Positions 6,790 through 34,098 of a stretch of 64,000 nt of DNA are shown one piece after another. Positions within the stretch are counted from its first letter, which is position 1; the number at the start of each line of letters is the position of its first letter. Source of the DNA: Minwuia sp. (GTDB taxonomy: Bacteria; Pseudomonadota; Alphaproteobacteria; Minwuiales; Minwuiaceae); contig JARGPL010000003.1 in assembly GCA_029210175.1 (NCBI GenBank), forward strand, positions 62,001-126,000, in the 5' to 3' direction. The position numbers were made by a program, and so were the translations under genes. The notes below the pieces were generated by a model. That model did no database searches and was not told the origin of the DNA. It saw only the letters and a list, made by a program, of their open reading frames with translations.

Positions 6790-7851
6790 ATGACCAAGCT
6801 GATCAAGGCGGGAATTCTGGGTGCAAGCGGTTACACGGGCGGTGATCTGGTCCGACTGCTCGTCCGCCATCCCAATGTCCGGATCAGCTTCATGACCGCT
6901 GACCGTCACGCGGGCAAACCCATTGCGGAGGTCTTTCCGCATCTGCTGGGTCTGGACCTGCCGCCGCTGGTCAGCGTGGATGACATCGACTGGCCAACAG
7001 CCGATGTGGATGTGGTGTTCTGTGGCCTGCCGCACGGCACCACCCAGAATATCGTCCGGAAGATCCTGACCGAGAACGACAGCATTCGTGTCGTCGACCT
7101 TTCGGCAGACTTTCGCCTCGGCGACCCCGCAGTCTATGCCGAATGGTACGGGCACGAGCATTACGCGCCGGAAATCCAGCCAATGGCGGTCTATGGCCTG
7201 CCGGAATTCTATCGTGACGGCATCCGGACGTCCCGGCTGATCGCCAACCCCGGCTGCTACCCCACGGCGGCGCTGCTGGCACTGGTGCCGCTGGCCGCCG
7301 CTGGTCAGGTGGATGTGGCCGACGTTATCATCGATGCGAAATCAGGCGTGTCCGGTGCCGGGCGCGGTCTGAAGGAAAACCTGCTGTTCTGTGAAGTGGG
7401 TGAAGGCATTCATCCCTATGCCGTCGGCACCCACCGCCACGCGCCGGAGATCGAACAGGAAATCGCCAAGGCCGCCGGGGGCGCGGACACGCATGTGAAC
7501 TTCACGCCGCACCTGATGCCAATGAACCGCGGCGAGCTGTGCACCTGCTACGTCCGCATGATCGGCGGCGCGACGGTTGCCGACCTGCGCCAGACCTTCG
7601 CCACCCGTTACGCCGACGAGCCGTTCGTTCACCTGGTGCCGGAAGGTGTCGCCCCGGCAACCCGCAACGTCAGGGGATCGAACTATTGCCAGGTCGGTCT
7701 GTACCCGGACCGGATTCCGGGCCGCGCCATCGTCGTCGCGGTGATCGACAATCTGGTGAAGGGATCATCGGGTGAGGCGATCCAGAACATGAACCTGATG
7801 TTCGGCCTGGCCGAGACCACCGGCATCGAACAGATCGCCCTGTTCCCCTGA
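6790..7851 (+). CDS. argC: N-acetyl-gamma-glutamyl-phosphate reductase
   Basis: A 353-residue enzyme of arginine biosynthesis that reduces N-acetylglutamyl-5-phosphate to the semialdehyde with NADPH. The nucleotide-binding loop GILGASGYTGGDLVRLL is at the N-terminus, the catalytic Cys is in NPGCYPTAALLAL (about residue 156), and FTPHLMPMNRG is the conserved substrate segment. The ATG at 6790 with AGGA eight bases upstream is preferred over an upstream GTG/TTG extension. No other arg genes are nearby. A strong hairpin follows the stop codon. Confidence 0.95.
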   Translation: MTKLIKAGILGASGYTGGDLVRLLVRHPNVRISFMTADRHAGKPIAEVFPHLLGLDLPPLVSVDDIDWPTADVDVVFCGLPHGTTQNIVRKILTENDSIRVVDLSADFRLGDPAVYAEWYGHEHYAPEIQPMAVYGLPEFYRDGIRTSRLIANPGCYPTAALLALVPLAAAGQVDVADVIIDAKSGVSGAGRGLKENLLFCEVGEGIHPYAVGTHRHAPEIEQEIAKAAGGADTHVNFTPHLMPMNRGELCTCYVRMIGGATVADLRQTFATRYADEPFVHLVPEGVAPATRNVRGSNYCQVGLYPDRIPGRAIVVAVIDNLVKGSSGEAIQNMNLMFGLAETTGIEQIALFP

Positions 7852-7863
7852 ACACTGCGAAAC

Positions 7864-7911
7864 GCATCTCCCCCTCCTGCAGAGCACAAGGCACGCAGGA
7901 GGGGGAAATGC
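7864..7911. terminator. bidirectional hairpin between convergent genes
   Basis: TCCCCCTCCTGC at 7869-7880 pairs perfectly with GCAGGAGGGGGA at 7895-7906 around a 14-base loop, and outer arms GCAT/ATGC (7864-7867 and 7908-7911) extend it past one mismatch. It lies between argC and the oppositely oriented DUF169 gene, so it can terminate both. There is no clear T-tract on either side. Confidence 0.6.
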
Positions 7912-7949
7912 ATCTACCGCAATCGCAACATAACGATGATCGGGTGGTC

Positions 7950-8747
7950 CTACCGGTCGCCGTATGACGCGGACATGCCCGCGCGGACATCCATCTGGAT
8001 GCCGTACTGCGGGATGGGATAGCGCAGTCCGTTGCCGGACAGATGCGCCAGCCCGTCGATGACCTTCGGCAGGAACCTCGGCGGAATGGCCATCAGCAAC
8101 TCATCCTCCATGACGCCGCCATATCGCCGCTCGGCGAAGCAGGGGATCGACAGGCTCGGCTCGTCCGTGCTCAACGCCCGGCCCCAGCTGTCAGCGCATG
8201 AGCTTTCGCCGACGCAGCCCCACTGCAGATTCTTGTATCCGGCCCACTGCAGGCCATTGATGAACAGGATCATCTGCGCCGGTGTGGCATAGATCATGGC
8301 GATGTCAGGCGGGTCCAGGCGACCGGCGACCAGCGGCGAAACGGCCATCGCCTCATACTTGCCTGCGGGCACGACCTTCATGGCTTCCTGATGGGCGCGG
8401 GTATCGGTCTCGGTCTCGTACCAGACACCGACCATGCCGCGACCGGATTTCCAGTCATCGTCCTGTGGCCGCAATCCGATGACCGCGCCACACTGGGCAC
8501 CGACCAGATCCGCCATGGTGATGCCCACTGTCCAGCCCAGCCGGGACGCCTGGCCGACGATCTGATCCGTGGTGTGGATGGAGCGCGGACGACGGATGCG
8601 CGGTATCGCCTCCATCTCCGCCGCCGTCTCGAACAGCTTCATGCCGATCGGTGTGGTGCGCAGCCTGAGATACTGGTTCAGGCCAGCAACGATGCCCTTC
8701 CAGTCATAGGTATCAGGCTCCGTGACGTTCCATGCCGTGTCTGCCAT
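7950..8747 (-). CDS. DUF169 domain-containing protein
   Basis: A 265-residue protein of the DUF169 family (COG2043). Recognisable parts are the N-terminal TTPIGMKLFE, the Cys-containing CGAVIGL, the central LFINGLQWAGYKNL and the CVGESSCAD motif with two Cys residues. Conserved cysteines in this family have led to suggestions of metal or Fe-S binding, but no activity is established. It has no signal peptide or membrane segment. It is convergent with argC and transcribed away from the NicO gene, so neighbours give no functional hint. Confidence 0.8.
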   Translation of the reverse strand: MADTAWNVTEPDTYDWKGIVAGLNQYLRLRTTPIGMKLFETAAEMEAIPRIRRPRSIHTTDQIVGQASRLGWTVGITMADLVGAQCGAVIGLRPQDDDWKSGRGMVGVWYETETDTRAHQEAMKVVPAGKYEAMAVSPLVAGRLDPPDIAMIYATPAQMILFINGLQWAGYKNLQWGCVGESSCADSWGRALSTDEPSLSIPCFAERRYGGVMEDELLMAIPPRFLPKVIDGLAHLSGNGLRYPIPQYGIQMDVRAGMSASYGDR

Positions 8748-8848
8748 CGATCATATCCTCCCCGAAAGTGAAACGAAGGACAGTATGACGGTGTGGAACT
8801 GCCTGCGGCAAGCGCAGGGGGCGGGGGGCAGGTTGCGCCCAGAACAGG

Positions 8849-9868
8849 TCAGATGCCGAAGGGTGAGCGTGGTGCCCCGATGCTGGCGAGCAGGAACAGG
8901 CTGCCAAAGGCGATCAGAGCCAGCGCGCCGAAGACCCGCAATCCGGTTTCCAGCCGACCGGCCCAGCGCATGTCGCGGTTGGCCAGGCGCATCGCGAACC
9001 GCTTCGACGTCAGTGTCAGGATGGCCAGCACCGATACCGTGGCGCCGGTGCCAAGCGACATGGCGAAGGTCGCGCCTATTCCTGCGGCAACCAGGCCATT
9101 GGCCAGGGCGAAGACCAGCACGATGAGTGCCCCGCCACAGGGCCGTATGCCGACCGCCAGGATGATCGGCACGGCCCGCCGGAGCGTCAGCCGCCCGCCG
9201 TCCTGTCCTGTCGGCGGCAGCGCGACATGCCCATGGTCATGGCCACGGTGTTCGTGTCCGTGTCCGTGGTCATGGGCGTGGTCTGCATGGTCATGGCCGT
9301 GATCATCATGGTGATGATGATGCCCTCGCCCCGTCAGCGCCTGCCAGAGCAGGTACAGGCCAACCGCCGCGATCAGGCCGAAGCTGAACTTTTCAAGCGA
9401 CCAGGCGCTGTCGAGCAGCTGGTTTCCGGCCAGATCGAACAGCCATGCGCCGCCGAGCACCAGCACGACCGCCGTCACCCCCTGCGCCAGCGATGACAGC
9501 AGCGACAGTGCAATGCCCTGCCGGACCGCGCGTTCATTGGCCAGCAGATATGACGTGATGACGGCCTTGCCGTGCCCCGGCCCGACAGCATGAAAGATGC
9601 CGTAGAGCAGGCTGATGAGGATCAGCCCCCATGCGGTGGACAGGCTGTAGTCATCCTTCAGCGCACGCACGGCCAGTGACAGCTTGCGATAGAGTTGCGA
9701 CTGGATCTGGCGCACCTCGTTCATGACGCTTTCGTAGAGGCTGAGGTCAGCAGGCTCGGCCGCCGCCGTGCCGGGGCGCTGGAAGGGAGAGGCCGTCTGC
9801 GCGCTGACCGGCAGAACCGAAAGGCTCAACAGCGCGGCGAGCAGCAGTCCGCAGATCAGCCGCCACAT
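8849..9868 (-). CDS. NicO/RcnA-type nickel-cobalt (or zinc) transporter with His-rich loop
   Basis: A 339-residue membrane protein with a signal-like first helix, six or so membrane helices and a long cytoplasmic or periplasmic loop of alternating His and Asp (roughly residues 182-213). The motif VGPGHGKAVITSYLL is the HxGxxH-like metal signature of the NicO family, and a later GIRPCGGALIVLVFAL repeats the family's second signature. RcnA members export Ni/Co; others import. Its start overlaps the DUF1007 gene by 13 bases, and both follow znuC and znuB, so a role in zinc or nickel handling at the inner membrane is inferred. Metal and direction are not determined by sequence. Confidence 0.83.
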   Translation of the reverse strand: MWRLICGLLLAALLSLSVLPVSAQTASPFQRPGTAAAEPADLSLYESVMNEVRQIQSQLYRKLSLAVRALKDDYSLSTAWGLILISLLYGIFHAVGPGHGKAVITSYLLANERAVRQGIALSLLSSLAQGVTAVVLVLGGAWLFDLAGNQLLDSAWSLEKFSFGLIAAVGLYLLWQALTGRGHHHHHDDHGHDHADHAHDHGHGHEHRGHDHGHVALPPTGQDGGRLTLRRAVPIILAVGIRPCGGALIVLVFALANGLVAAGIGATFAMSLGTGATVSVLAILTLTSKRFAMRLANRDMRWAGRLETGLRVFGALALIAFGSLFLLASIGAPRSPFGI

Positions 9869-28923: not shown

Positions 28924-29316
28924 ATGTTTCAGACTGAAGGCGGCAAACCGATCCTGACCGTCACGCCGCGCGCCGCAGAGCAGGTGCAGCGGCTGATGCA
29001 GAAAGCGACGGCCAAGGGTGACACGGCGCTGGGTGTGCGTGTCGGCGTGAAGACCGGCGGCTGTTCGGGCATGACCTACAATGTCGAATACGCCACGGAG
29101 ATGAAGAAATTCGAGGAAGTGGTGGAATCGGAGGGTGCGAAGGTATTCGTCGACCCGATGGCGACCATGTTCCTGCTGGGTGCCGAGATGGATTACGAGG
29201 AAACCCAGTTCCGGTCCGGCTTCACCTTCACCAACCCGAACGAGGCTGAACGCTGTGGCTGCGGCGAGAGCTTCTCGGTCCAGCCGGCCGTGGGCGAGGC
29301 GGCAAAGAAGCCCTGA
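28924..29316 (+). CDS. sufA: A-type Fe-S carrier protein SufA
   Basis: A 130-residue HesB/IscA-family protein with the three cluster-binding cysteines in GGCSGMTYNVEY and ERCGCGESFSV. It carries assembled clusters to target proteins. It is the last gene of the operon, preceded by GACGAGGTGAAACG, and is followed by a small hairpin. The C-terminus is slightly longer than typical. Confidence 0.92.
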   Translation: MFQTEGGKPILTVTPRAAEQVQRLMQKATAKGDTALGVRVGVKTGGCSGMTYNVEYATEMKKFEEVVESEGAKVFVDPMATMFLLGAEMDYEETQFRSGFTFTNPNEAERCGCGESFSVQPAVGEAAKKP

Positions 29317-29333
29317 CCTGGGCACGGAGCTTA

Positions 29334-29354
29334 GCCGGAGATTCGGCCTCCGGC
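29334..29354 (+). terminator. hairpin after the suf operon
   Basis: GCCGGAG (29334-29340) and CTCCGGC (29348-29354) pair perfectly across a seven-base loop, 18 bases past the sufA stop. No T-tract follows, so it is only a probable terminator. Confidence 0.4.
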
Positions 29355-29674
29355 CTCAGCCATACCGACGGATCACCCAGCGTCCCGCATGTGAATCCTG
29401 CTTTCAGCTACTGTTCTCCAAACAGACTGACGAAATGCTTGACGCTTTGTCGTCAACCATGGCATCAGACGGAGCACGCGATCAAAGTCGAGATATCGGT
29501 TGGTAATTCGTTGAGACAGGCTGGAACATCAAGAGAATTAGATCCTATTATCTTGGGGCATTAAGCTCTGCCTGTTGTAATTCTTCAAGTTTCTAACAAT
29601 AGTGCTTAAAATATCCTGCGCACAGCGATATTTCGTGCGTGCGATCGGCAACATGTCTAAATTGGACAAGTTTA
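29355..29674. other. non-coding transition into AT-rich DNA
   Basis: About 320 bases with no gene that I can support. The composition changes from GC-rich at 29,400 to clearly AT-rich by 29,520, marking the left edge of the acyltransferase cassette. No tRNA, direct repeat or integrase fragment was recognised at the edge. Confidence 0.55.
29584..29612 (+). promoter_or_regulatory. putative promoter of the MBOAT cassette
   Basis: TTCAAG (29584-29589) and TAAAAT (29607-29612) are exactly 17 bases apart and lie about 63 bases before the MBOAT start. This fits a sigma-70 promoter but AT-rich sequence makes chance matches common. Confidence 0.35.
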
Positions 29675-31141
29675 ATGCTATTTTTTGAAACGAAATTCTT
29701 TTGGCTCTTTTTTGCATTTCTAATTTTTTATTTTTCGGTTGGAAAAAAATACCGACCAATTGTTATCATCGTTACCAGCTATATATTCTATGGCACTTGG
29801 GATTGGCGATTCCTCTCACTCCTCATTGCCTCGACCAGCGTTGACTATTTCAGCGGTCTACGCATCGAAAATTCAAAAAACGAGCATGTTCGAAAAAGAT
29901 GGCTACTTACGAGTATAATATTTAATATCGGCCTATTGGGCATATTCAAGTATTTTGATTTCTTTGCATCAGAAATACAGTCGTTGTTTGGAGTTTCAGG
30001 GGAAAACTATCTTCTACTTAATGTCATTTTGCCAGCAGGTATTTCATTTTACACATTCCAAACCCTCGGATATGTGATCGACGTTTATAGACGACAGCAG
30101 AAGGCGGAAACTTCTTACTGGAACTTCGCTGCATTTGTGAGTTTTTTCCCACAGTTGATCGCAGGACCGATCGAGCGTGCCCATGTCCTGCTTGAGCAGA
30201 TTAAGAACCCGCTTCCACCAAAATTGAGCAACTTTTACCTCGGTACGCGACTGTTTCTGTTCGGCATGGCTAAGAAGATCGTTATTGCAGACAACCTCGC
30301 GAAATTCGTTGATCCGGCATTCGCAGATCCTGCGGCCCAAGACCCGGTCACGTTGTTATTGGCAGCATATTGCTTCTCGTTTCAGATTTACTGTGATTTC
30401 TCAGGCTATACAGACATGGCACGGGGCGTCGCAAAGATAATCGGCATTGACCTCTCGATAAACTTCAACTTTCCCTACTTCGCACAGAGTATCCGATCTT
30501 TCTGGCAACGATGGCATATTACGCTCTATAGTTGGTTCCGCGACTACATCTACCGTCCGCTCGGGGGAAGCAGAGTCAGTTCGGGCCAAACAATTCGCAA
30601 TATTCTCATCATTTTCGCGATCTCCGGCCTTTGGCATGGGGCGGGCTGGCAATTTATTGTCTGGGGACTGATCCATGGGACATACATCTGCATCGAACGT
30701 GCGTTGGAAGAAACCATTGTTGGACGCTTCTTCAGGCACCTGCCAGCATTCGTCAAATGCATCATGATCTTCCATTTTGTCACGTTCGCCTGGATATTCT
30801 TTCGTTCGCCGGACCTGTCGAGTGCGTTGGCCTACTTAAACGGAATAGGCGGAATTTTCACACAGGACTGGACCATCTCCTGGATCACGGTACCGCTCGA
30901 GTATGCAACGTATACGCTACCTGCGATTGGCCAGAGTACGGCCATGCCGTTTTATTTCGCGGCCCTTCTGGTGCTTGTCGCGCCGCTGGTTGTCTGTGAA
31001 TATTTTGCGAAGTCTCGCCCCGTTGGATTCGATCGAACATGGCCCGTCGATGCTAGAGTGATCCTTTACGCCACACTTGCATTGGTAATGTTCTGGTTCA
31101 ACGCCGAAGGTAATCCGGCGTTCATCTACTTCCAGTTCTAG
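29675..31141 (+). CDS. MBOAT family O-acyltransferase (AlgI-like)
   Basis: A 488-residue polytopic membrane protein of the MBOAT family, DltB/AlgI branch. Diagnostic parts are GISFYTFQTLGYVIDVYR, FFPQLIAGPIERA, FCDFSGYTDMARG-like YCDFSGYTDMARG, FWQRWHITLYSWFRDYIYRP and the catalytic His in SGLWHGAGWQFIVWG (about residue 322). Such proteins move acetyl groups across the inner membrane onto an exopolysaccharide. ATG 29675 gives the normal hydrophobic start. Codon use and base composition are much more AT-rich than in neighbours, suggesting recent transfer. It abuts the SGNH-like gene, its probable periplasmic partner. Confidence 0.92.
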   Translation: MLFFETKFFWLFFAFLIFYFSVGKKYRPIVIIVTSYIFYGTWDWRFLSLLIASTSVDYFSGLRIENSKNEHVRKRWLLTSIIFNIGLLGIFKYFDFFASEIQSLFGVSGENYLLLNVILPAGISFYTFQTLGYVIDVYRRQQKAETSYWNFAAFVSFFPQLIAGPIERAHVLLEQIKNPLPPKLSNFYLGTRLFLFGMAKKIVIADNLAKFVDPAFADPAAQDPVTLLLAAYCFSFQIYCDFSGYTDMARGVAKIIGIDLSINFNFPYFAQSIRSFWQRWHITLYSWFRDYIYRPLGGSRVSSGQTIRNILIIFAISGLWHGAGWQFIVWGLIHGTYICIERALEETIVGRFFRHLPAFVKCIMIFHFVTFAWIFFRSPDLSSALAYLNGIGGIFTQDWTISWITVPLEYATYTLPAIGQSTAMPFYFAALLVLVAPLVVCEYFAKSRPVGFDRTWPVDARVILYATLALVMFWFNAEGNPAFIYFQF

Positions 31142-31150
31142 GTGAATAGC

Positions 31151-32170
31151 ATGACCCTGATACGCATCGCGCTTGTTTTCGCCGGGCTTTTCCTTGCCAA
31201 TTCAGGCATCAACTGGCTAGACCAGAACGTCAACGTCAATCGAGTCTACGGAAACGCCTTGAGTGCCCACATGGCAAAGAACGACCTGACGAGCGAAGTC
31301 ATTTTCATCGGCGACAGCCGAACGCATCAAGGCGTCATTCCGACGGAATTTACGGGGGCCATTCAAGAGCGCACGGGCAGAAATGTGCCTGCCTGGAACT
31401 TCGGTCGCCCCGGCATGCAGATTCCATTCTTCTATTTTACGATCGAGGAATTCGCTAAGGCCTCCGGGAAGTGGCCCCGAGCAGTCATCATGAATGCGAG
31501 CTATTACCTGCTTTGCCGCAAGGACTGGATGAACCGGGTCTATCTACCCTATTTTGAACTGGAACCGGAACAATTCGATACCGCTGCGGATCTCGGCGTG
31601 ATCTGGCCCTGGGAGAAGTGGTACTGGCAAGCCCGACAGGACATTCCGCTGCTAGGCAGTTTTCACATGGTGAACACGCTGTTCGGCATGCTCGCAAAAT
31701 CTGCACCCGTTGCAACGCTGAATTCATTTGAGTCTTACTCAAAGCATGTCTACAGCGCCTATTCCGACGAATTGCGCGGATACTACCCTAGGGGCAACAT
31801 CCACATCGGACCAAACGACCGCCGCAAGACCCGCACCTTTCGCGACGACCTAGCTTGCGATAATTTTCTCCAATTCTTGGACAAGCTGATCGTAGATGCG
31901 AAGCAACATGGAACCATGGTCATCATTTATGAATTTCCCTGGGCGAAAGCTCAAGAATCACCTCTTGATAATGCTATGATCGCTTATTATCAAACTAAAG
32001 TGAAGAACATCACCAAGAGACATGAAAACTCTTTGTTTATTGAATATGATCATTTCTGGGATTACAGAAATTTCGTGGACACACTACATCTTAATAATAG
32101 AGGTGCTAGCAAATTAACAAATTTGATAGCTGAATGGTATATTGAGGAAATCGGCATTATTGATAATTAG
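31151..32170 (+). CDS. SGNH-hydrolase-like exported protein (AlgJ/AlgX-like partner of MBOAT)
   Basis: About 339 residues starting at ATG 31151 (AGGTGA six bases upstream; GTG 31142 directly after the MBOAT stop is possible). One N-terminal hydrophobic segment acts as signal anchor. IFIGDSRTHQG is the block I nucleophile Ser motif and VDTLHLNNRGA near the end is the D-x-x-H block, so the Ser-His-Asp triad of SGNH enzymes is complete. Proteins like this complete polysaccharide O-acetylation begun by MBOAT. Similarity to a named family is weak. The 3' third is strongly AT-rich. Confidence 0.7.
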   Translation: MTLIRIALVFAGLFLANSGINWLDQNVNVNRVYGNALSAHMAKNDLTSEVIFIGDSRTHQGVIPTEFTGAIQERTGRNVPAWNFGRPGMQIPFFYFTIEEFAKASGKWPRAVIMNASYYLLCRKDWMNRVYLPYFELEPEQFDTAADLGVIWPWEKWYWQARQDIPLLGSFHMVNTLFGMLAKSAPVATLNSFESYSKHVYSAYSDELRGYYPRGNIHIGPNDRRKTRTFRDDLACDNFLQFLDKLIVDAKQHGTMVIIYEFPWAKAQESPLDNAMIAYYQTKVKNITKRHENSLFIEYDHFWDYRNFVDTLHLNNRGASKLTNLIAEWYIEEIGIIDN

Positions 32171-32355
32171 GGTCGCATCGGGTCGTCATCTGGACCCGCT
32201 GTCAAAAATGGTAGTGTCAAGCCTTCTATCTTCTTTGCTCAACGTCAATATTGCAGGGAGGGTTTCTGCTCGTATACAAACGAAGAGGGACACCCGAACC
32301 CATCGAATGCCCCTTTTCCGTTATCCAGACAATTCCATCACAAGATGGAGTCTGT

Positions 32356-32427
32356 ACCGGCCCTCTTCCCCACCCGGCCCCCATTCAGGATGATCCGGTG
32401 GGTGGCCGGGTGGAGGAGAGGGCCGGT
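32356..32427. repeat. very long hairpin between convergent genes
   Basis: The arm at 32356-32379 pairs with that at 32404-32427: 24 positions, of which only two inside are not Watson-Crick and these are G-T compatible. A further CCCA/TGGG pair closes inside, leaving a small loop. The rest of the 32171-32470 gap holds no gene. It probably terminates both the acyltransferase cassette and the nitronate monooxygenase, but its length is unusual and it may be a repeat-element end. Confidence 0.6.
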
Positions 32428-32470
32428 GATGCAATCCAGAAAAGGCGCCTTCAAGAGCCGTTAATCGCCG

Positions 32471-34098
<1,628 letters not shown>

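Follow-up and report, generated by a model that had tools for sequence, protein, structure and literature searches.

A probably foreign MBOAT–SGNH gene pair at an inversion junction beside the suf operon of Minwuia sp., with an amidated nonulosonate glycan as a possible acceptor

Introduction

Why does a G+C-rich alphaproteobacterial genome carry, directly behind its suf operon, two A+T-rich genes that resemble the parts of a glycan acyltransferase, and on which glycan would they act? The question is raised by a 64,000-nucleotide stretch of Minwuia sp. (GCA_029210175.1, contig JARGPL010000003.1, positions 62,001 to 126,000), called the window here. A reading made from its letters alone, the original prediction, had proposed a horizontally acquired pair of a membrane-bound O-acyltransferase (MBOAT) and an SGNH protein, inserted next to suf, with its polysaccharide target elsewhere. 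The analysis below indicates that the two genes very probably form a horizontally acquired MBOAT–SGNH O-acyltransferase, and proposes tentatively a glycan carrying an amidated nonulosonic acid as its acceptor. The own genome is designated G000, the congeners G001–G006 and the fetched loci L plus a number; positions without a locus name are those of the window.

Results

Two tandem genes in a low-G+C insert

The drop in G+C at about 29.5 kb and its recovery after 32.25 kb, as described in the original prediction, were confirmed. The interval given then, 29,520–32,250, has a G+C of 0.469. For comparison, 2,730-bp windows slid over the rest of the 64 kb (n = 1,108, insert left out) have a mean of 0.632 (standard deviation 0.0145, lowest 0.583), and locally the values drop to 0.37–0.54 from about 0.60–0.65 between ~29.5 and ~32.3 kb. 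Better limits are 29,317–32,470, within which G+C is 0.47 vs. 0.63. On the left, blastn homology to congeners G001, G002, G003, and G005 ends at 29,306–29,314, at the end of sufA, and the insert gave no blastn match to the compared congener loci except a hairpin repeat, as judged on rows of >60 bp and >200 bp. The G+C at third codon positions (GC3) is 0.54 and 0.59 in the two insert genes, vs. 0.70–0.82 in seven suf genes (named by eye, except sufA); it is 0.80 in the downstream gene of the nitronate monooxygenase-like (NMO) family. Among open reading frames (ORFs) of ≥90 aa, the insert encloses two plausible genes, in tandem on the + strand, namely the AlgI-like MBOAT and the protein with GDSR and DTLH motifs that had been predicted.

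The first protein is an MBOAT by its PF03062 domain (2e-31, 110 bits vs. a cut-off of 27). Its best start is the ATG at 29675, the listed ORF opening at a GTG at 29639. In a sequence search of the PDB the core matched DltB (6bug, 1.2e-27), and His321 (30635–30637) and His281 (30515–30517) both aligned with DltB histidines, while the DltB equivalog model TIGR04091 of NCBIfam was not reached (152.6 vs. 375 bits). The protein ends in FIYFQF, and an FxYxxF end is present in 76 of the 79 complete MBOAT ORFs from 80 loci fetched by MBOAT sequence. The Tyr of the C-terminal motif of PatA is auto-acetylated, and FxYxxF was defined for the DltX motif, with the MBOAT ends termed very similar (PMC12148441). 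Directly behind the MBOAT gene stands the SGNH gene, an arrangement found in at least 56 of the 80 MBOAT loci, a lower bound counted by jackhmmer at E < 1e-5 within 300 bp.

The second protein is predicted to consist of an N-terminal helix (residues 3–30) followed by the SGNH domain. Its candidate catalytic residues, S59 (31316–31318), N118, D313 (32078–32080), and H316 (32087–32089), are common to the SGNH protein of L051, a contig of a Nitrospinaceae metagenome-assembled genome, and G57, S59, and H316 are invariant across a 30-row SGNH alignment. No Pfam or NCBIfam model was matched over its cut-off (in Pfam only MCM_N at 0.042, below cut-off), and a phmmer search of PDB chains, run to E = 10, gave no hit; the partner is therefore outside named families, as had been expected. 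A single-sequence structure prediction reached a predicted local distance difference test score (pLDDT) of 37 and was replaced by a model based on the 30-row alignment (the window sequence plus 29 of 59 candidate SGNH ORFs), with a pLDDT of 81.1, a predicted template-modelling score of 0.82, and a weak middle part (under 70). With this model, Foldseek ranked DltD first to third (8.1e-6 to 2.7e-5) and PatB, at 1.7e-4, fifth, seventh, and eighth; the top rows also include a designed scaffold and hydrolases of GDSL type. VIA-align gave Z scores of 12.7–14.9 in the 50 rows listed, with hydrolases first, sialate O-acetylesterases at 13.1–13.4, and DltD and PatB at 12.8; AlgX and AlgJ were absent among the 50 matches listed by each of the two programs. 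The SGNH fold, whose absence would have spoken against the original prediction, is clear in the model.

The SGNH gene has no match in the relatives searched

None of 59 relatives other than the own genome gave a match to the SGNH gene; six of these are congeners and two belong to the same family. A search of 385 class genomes (own included) gave one other match, weak and partial, as did profile A2 in 398 phylum genomes (own included). A scan with six short peptides, which finds close relatives only, gave 18 pattern matches and no relative in a genome-contig set that represents 84,980 species by one genome each; 83 pattern matches on viral contigs, where alignment A2 was also used, held none either, and no homologue was confirmed on plasmids. 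The same pair at the same place in relatives, which would argue against acquisition, was thus not seen, and horizontal origin agrees with the foreign G+C and GC3.

The own genome has a single match to the MBOAT query, and G003 is the only congener in a 190-genome class sample with a match, a distant one (26%). On plasmids, with E up to 1e-40, MBOAT relatives were found in 75 of 72,556 records; none reached 60% identity, and six covered ≥80% of the query. A pattern scan of the genome-contig set confirmed at least 559 MBOAT relatives, of which the best 80 were kept. L051 holds both the nearest MBOAT and the nearest SGNH protein among the matches listed, in the same gene order. Its MBOAT is 45% identical in the best segment and 49% over 443 columns, and its SGNH protein scored 157.7 bits at 31% identity (next 25.7) among the best 80 loci. 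In a quick MBOAT tree of 108 out of 110 rows (the window plus 109 loci; two ORFs ≤380 aa dropped, 14 rows flagged for odd composition), the MBOAT of the window is sister to that of L051 with SH-aLRT 98. Because the two branches are long (0.84 and 0.70), L051 is, on sequence, the nearest relative among the matches listed and not the donor. These results suggest that the pair is foreign and came, perhaps recently, from a distant donor.

The insert occupies one junction of a large inversion

In the complete congener genome G003 the two flanks of the insert lie far apart. The left part of the window (6.7–29.3 kb) is collinear with G003 2.714–2.688 Mb, reversed and with gaps, and the right part (32.47–64 kb) with 1.172–1.205 Mb, with local internal rearrangements. 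In G001, G002, G003, and G005 a small DUF gene follows sufA and the NMO gene stands beside a VOC-like gene (DUF and VOC are names given by eye; sufA of G002 is split over two contig ends), and the convergent gaps at these sites in G003 are 12 and 97 bp. The own genome has sufA, then the insert, then the NMO gene, and on its contig C41 (L182) the DUF and VOC genes face each other across 73 bp without cargo. Judged from gene order, sufA–insert–NMO and DUF–VOC are two reciprocal junctions of one inversion that spans about 1.5 Mb by G003 coordinates, or else the complement of that span, with the insert filling one junction and the reciprocal one clean.

The locus is therefore not the plain insertion beside suf that had been supposed, and no simple empty site was found, since sufA and the NMO gene are neighbours in no congener locus read; neither of the neighbour pairs was seen in the loci read of G004 and G006. 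The inversion most simply appears derived in the own lineage, because four congeners against one keep the other order. G005, one of the four, is the closest of them as judged on the identities of DUF (91% vs. 76–80%) and sufA (98% vs. 93–95%). Beside the reciprocal junction, at L182 11523–17987, lies a repetitive protein of >2,100 aa that runs off the contig and resembles a calcium-binding RTX protein.

A candidate acceptor: an amidated nonulosonate glycan

The polysaccharide target likely lies elsewhere in the genome, as predicted: no glycan gene was recognised beside the pair (four proteins scanned, other neighbours by eye). Where it lies can be suggested from the neighbourhood in L051. There the pair is preceded by WbuX (cut by the locus edge), a HisF/WbuZ-type protein, HisH, an MptE-like protein, a radical SAM protein, and a PseF/NeuA-type cytidylyltransferase, and followed by an unmatched protein, a methyltransferase, a sulfotransferase, and an epimerase-2-like protein. 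This appears to be a cluster for an amidated nonulosonic acid. In Legionella, an amidotransferase of the WbuX/HisF/HisH kind is responsible for the C(=NH)CH3 group of the lipopolysaccharide O-chain (PMC10607449), and the O-chain sugar is legionaminic acid (PMC3766260). Among the best 80 MBOAT loci (827 kb in all, many short), L051 alone has three or more of the cluster genes, and one other has NeuB.

A homologous cluster stands on contig C31 of the own genome (L188). NeuB reaches 402.7 bits against a cut-off of 399.65 for the N-acetylneuraminate synthase model, and NeuC, WbuX, and HisH are all over their cut-offs. Below the NCBIfam cut-offs are WbuZ/HisF (282.1 vs. 299.7), the PseF/NeuA-type protein (152.7 vs. 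205.7), and a methyltransferase, and one further protein has a weak glycosyltransferase match only (27.2 vs. 200). Identities between C31 and L051 are 69% for WbuX, 60% for HisF/WbuZ, 47% for HisH, 36% for the NeuA-like and 33% for the epimerase-2-like protein. A MurJ-like flippase is over the Pfam and below the NCBIfam cut-off; it would matter because the SGNH enzyme is presumed periplasmic and could reach only a glycan that crosses the membrane. WbuX of the C31 type is shared by G001 (90%), G003 (89%), G005 (90%), and G004 (78%); G002 and G006 have 29–33% matches only, G007 a partial one, and G008 none.

Within the C31 cluster, a segment at L188 7.04–9.66 kb (7040–9656) holds a methyltransferase of G+C 0.449 and a divergent epimerase/glycosyltransferase-like gene of G+C 0.523, and the cluster on either side is collinear with G003 and G005. 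One lineage thus appears, from composition and collinearity, to show two foreign, low-G+C, glycan-related changes. A common donor of this segment and L051 was considered and found no support: the epimerase/glycosyltransferase-like protein is 33% identical to that of L051 vs. 37% to that of G003, and the methyltransferase is unmatched in L051. At the end of contig C31 (L188 58–705) lies a short ORF that resembles a transposase fragment. Further WbuX genes over the cut-off are present on contigs C24 (L189) and C43, the C24 copy near a second NeuB, which raises the possibility that amidation in this bacterium extends to several nonulosonate glycans.

Other features of the insert and its surroundings

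Coordinates are collected in Table 1. Seven promoter-like matches were counted in the leader region, vs. 3.6 (standard deviation 1.7) in shuffles. The palindrome has one copy in 161 kb of the own genome, two in 116 kb of G003, and none in 66 kb of G006; besides the window copy, it was located at L161 3467–3541 and L162 1364–1433. A repeat search found no direct or inverted repeats at the insert ends that could mark transposition, the palindrome only, and no mobility gene was recognised among the insert ORFs. A comparable dip in G+C, down to 0.475, marks a BREX (bacteriophage exclusion) island on the same contig (G000 contig C39:23159–38840; L184 3159–18840), about 23–39 kb before the window, with BrxF, BrxC, PglX, an ATPase, BrxHI, PglZ, and BrxA by PADLOC models. 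The ORF at L184 19458 resembles a recombinase, and a type IIG restriction-methylation-like gene lies at L183 5403–8513.

Table 1. Features of the insert and its flanks (window positions)
Feature	Position	Strand	Basis or remark
sufA, last gene of the suf operon, left flank	28924..29316	+	Pfam PF01521, 7.6e-20
Whole insert, 3,154 bp	29317..32470	.	Congener homology stops and restarts at the limits; one inversion junction
A+T-rich leader 5′ of the MBOAT start codon	29501..29674	.	G+C 0.40
MBOAT gene, 488 aa from ATG 29675	29675..31141	+	Pfam PF03062; DltB alignment
C-terminal acyl-shuttle motif FIYFQF (FxYxxF)	31121..31138	+	Tyr485 codon 31127–31129
SGNH-fold gene, 342 aa	31142..32170	+	Model, Foldseek and VIA matches, alignments
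Palindrome, 27-nt arms, right side of insert	32356..32427	.	Resembles two places in G003
NMO-family gene, right flank	32471..33472	-	Pfam PF03060, 5.1e-57

Discussion

PatAB and DltBXD suggest, by analogy, how the pair would work. The MBOAT would take acetyl from acetyl-CoA on the cytoplasmic side and attach it to Tyr485 in the FIYFQF peptide at its own C terminus, and this peptide would hand it to Ser59 of the membrane-anchored SGNH partner, and the partner would transfer it to a glycan hydroxyl in the periplasm. MBOAT–SGNH pairs are a described kind of system, to which the present pair adds a new member whose SGNH protein is divergent. Like PatA/PatB, which O-acetylates peptidoglycan in Gram-negative bacteria, it has separate MBOAT and SGNH proteins, an FxYxxF end on the MBOAT, and an SGNH fold, but the SGNH sequence finds no relative among PDB chains by phmmer and its acceptor is only proposed. 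With DltB/DltD of teichoic acid D-alanylation it shares the MBOAT core and, in DltD, the top Foldseek match; unlike that system, its MBOAT is far below the DltB equivalog cut-off, the shuttle motif is on the MBOAT itself and not on DltX, and no DltA- or DltC-like gene was recognised among insert ORFs of ≥90 aa (a DltX-sized ORF is too short for this list). Lateral spread of the algI/algJ cassette was reportedly proposed by Franklin in 2004. Alginate O-acetylation by AlgI/AlgJ/AlgX also employs an MBOAT and periplasmic SGNH proteins (PMC4148444), whereas no alginate gene was recognised by eye beside the pair.

It is possible, short of probable, that the acceptor is the product of the NeuB–NeuC–WbuX–HisF–HisH–NeuA type cluster on C31, which would be a glycan carried on a lipid and containing an amidated nonulosonic acid of sialic- or legionaminic-like type. 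The fuller account, in which the pair is an O-acetyltransferase for this amidated (acetamidino) glycan, gained as a stand-alone unit together with a matching replacement in the distant glycan cluster, so that two acquisitions in one lineage, one of them fixed at an inversion breakpoint, would remodel one surface glycan in trans, is put forward as a doubtful one. In the literature searched, no paper names both MBOAT and nonulosonic acid, and the papers checked among those that name MBOAT and legionaminic acid treat the two separately. If the acceptor is right, the pair would do the same job as Lag-1, the 8-O-acetylation of legionaminic acid in Legionella (PMC3766260, PMC9558356), although Lag-1 is an AT3-only protein, of another membrane acyltransferase family (PMC9558356).

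Several observations weigh against these proposals. The link to the acceptor comes from one locus, found after the fact; a WbuX gene passes its cut-off in 37 of 190 class genomes, and the own genome has three. MBOATs of a similar kind are common, with matches in 71 of the 190 class genomes at up to 45% identity, so that this gene by itself is a poor guide to origin. As to the partner, D313 falls outside the near-invariant columns in the 30-row alignment, and the simple DxxH-end pattern is present in only 18 of the 59 candidate SGNH ORFs, the Asp being variable in this wider set. Whole-protein superposition on DltD is poor (Foldseek template-modelling score 0.39–0.41, root-mean-square deviation 13–16), and plain esterases and acylhydrolases match the model as well as or better than DltD and PatB do (VIA Z up to 14.9 vs. 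12.8); a transferase is preferred to an esterase because an MBOAT partner adjoins.

The same enzyme pair may have another acceptor, such as peptidoglycan in the manner of PatAB, cellulose or another exopolysaccharide, or the glycan of another cluster, and this alternative, which overlaps the first half of the account above, falls just short of an even chance. It is favoured by the similarity of the SGNH fold to both PatB and DltD, by the many polymers that MBOAT–SGNH pairs serve (PMC12148441), and by the second NeuB and the two further WbuX genes in the own genome; against it, the nearest related pair among the matches listed sits in an amidated-nonulosonate cluster with homologues in the own genome. 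That the insert is instead a fragment captured during repair of the inversion break and now functionless would fit its exact position at the junction and the lack of a recognised mobility gene among its ORFs. This is unlikely, as both frames are open and of full length, the catalytic residues and the C-terminal motif are intact, and the SGNH model folds well. Vertical descent with loss in the other congeners, for which only the general possibility of loss can be cited, is very improbable given 59 of 59 relatives without a match to the SGNH gene, the foreign G+C and GC3, an MBOAT sister in Nitrospinota, and no remnant at the other-order junctions of the four congeners. A chimeric contig, suggested by flanks far apart in complete G003 and judged here on assembled contigs alone, can hardly be believed when the reciprocal DUF–VOC junction stands on an independent contig of a genome 99.99% complete with 0 contamination.

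A horizontally acquired MBOAT–SGNH O-acyltransferase is an ordinary enzyme system, and the interest of this one is moderate, coming from its position at an inversion junction and from its testable acceptor. Because the insert coincides exactly with the junction, further strains can be used to test which event came first, and the congeners that have the cluster and lack the pair are natural controls for the acceptor. The pair would be a compact surface-acetylating module that seemingly moved without its glycan cluster, and, if the proposed acceptor is true, MBOAT–SGNH would represent a second enzyme solution, unrelated to AT3, for acetylating legionaminic-type sugars.

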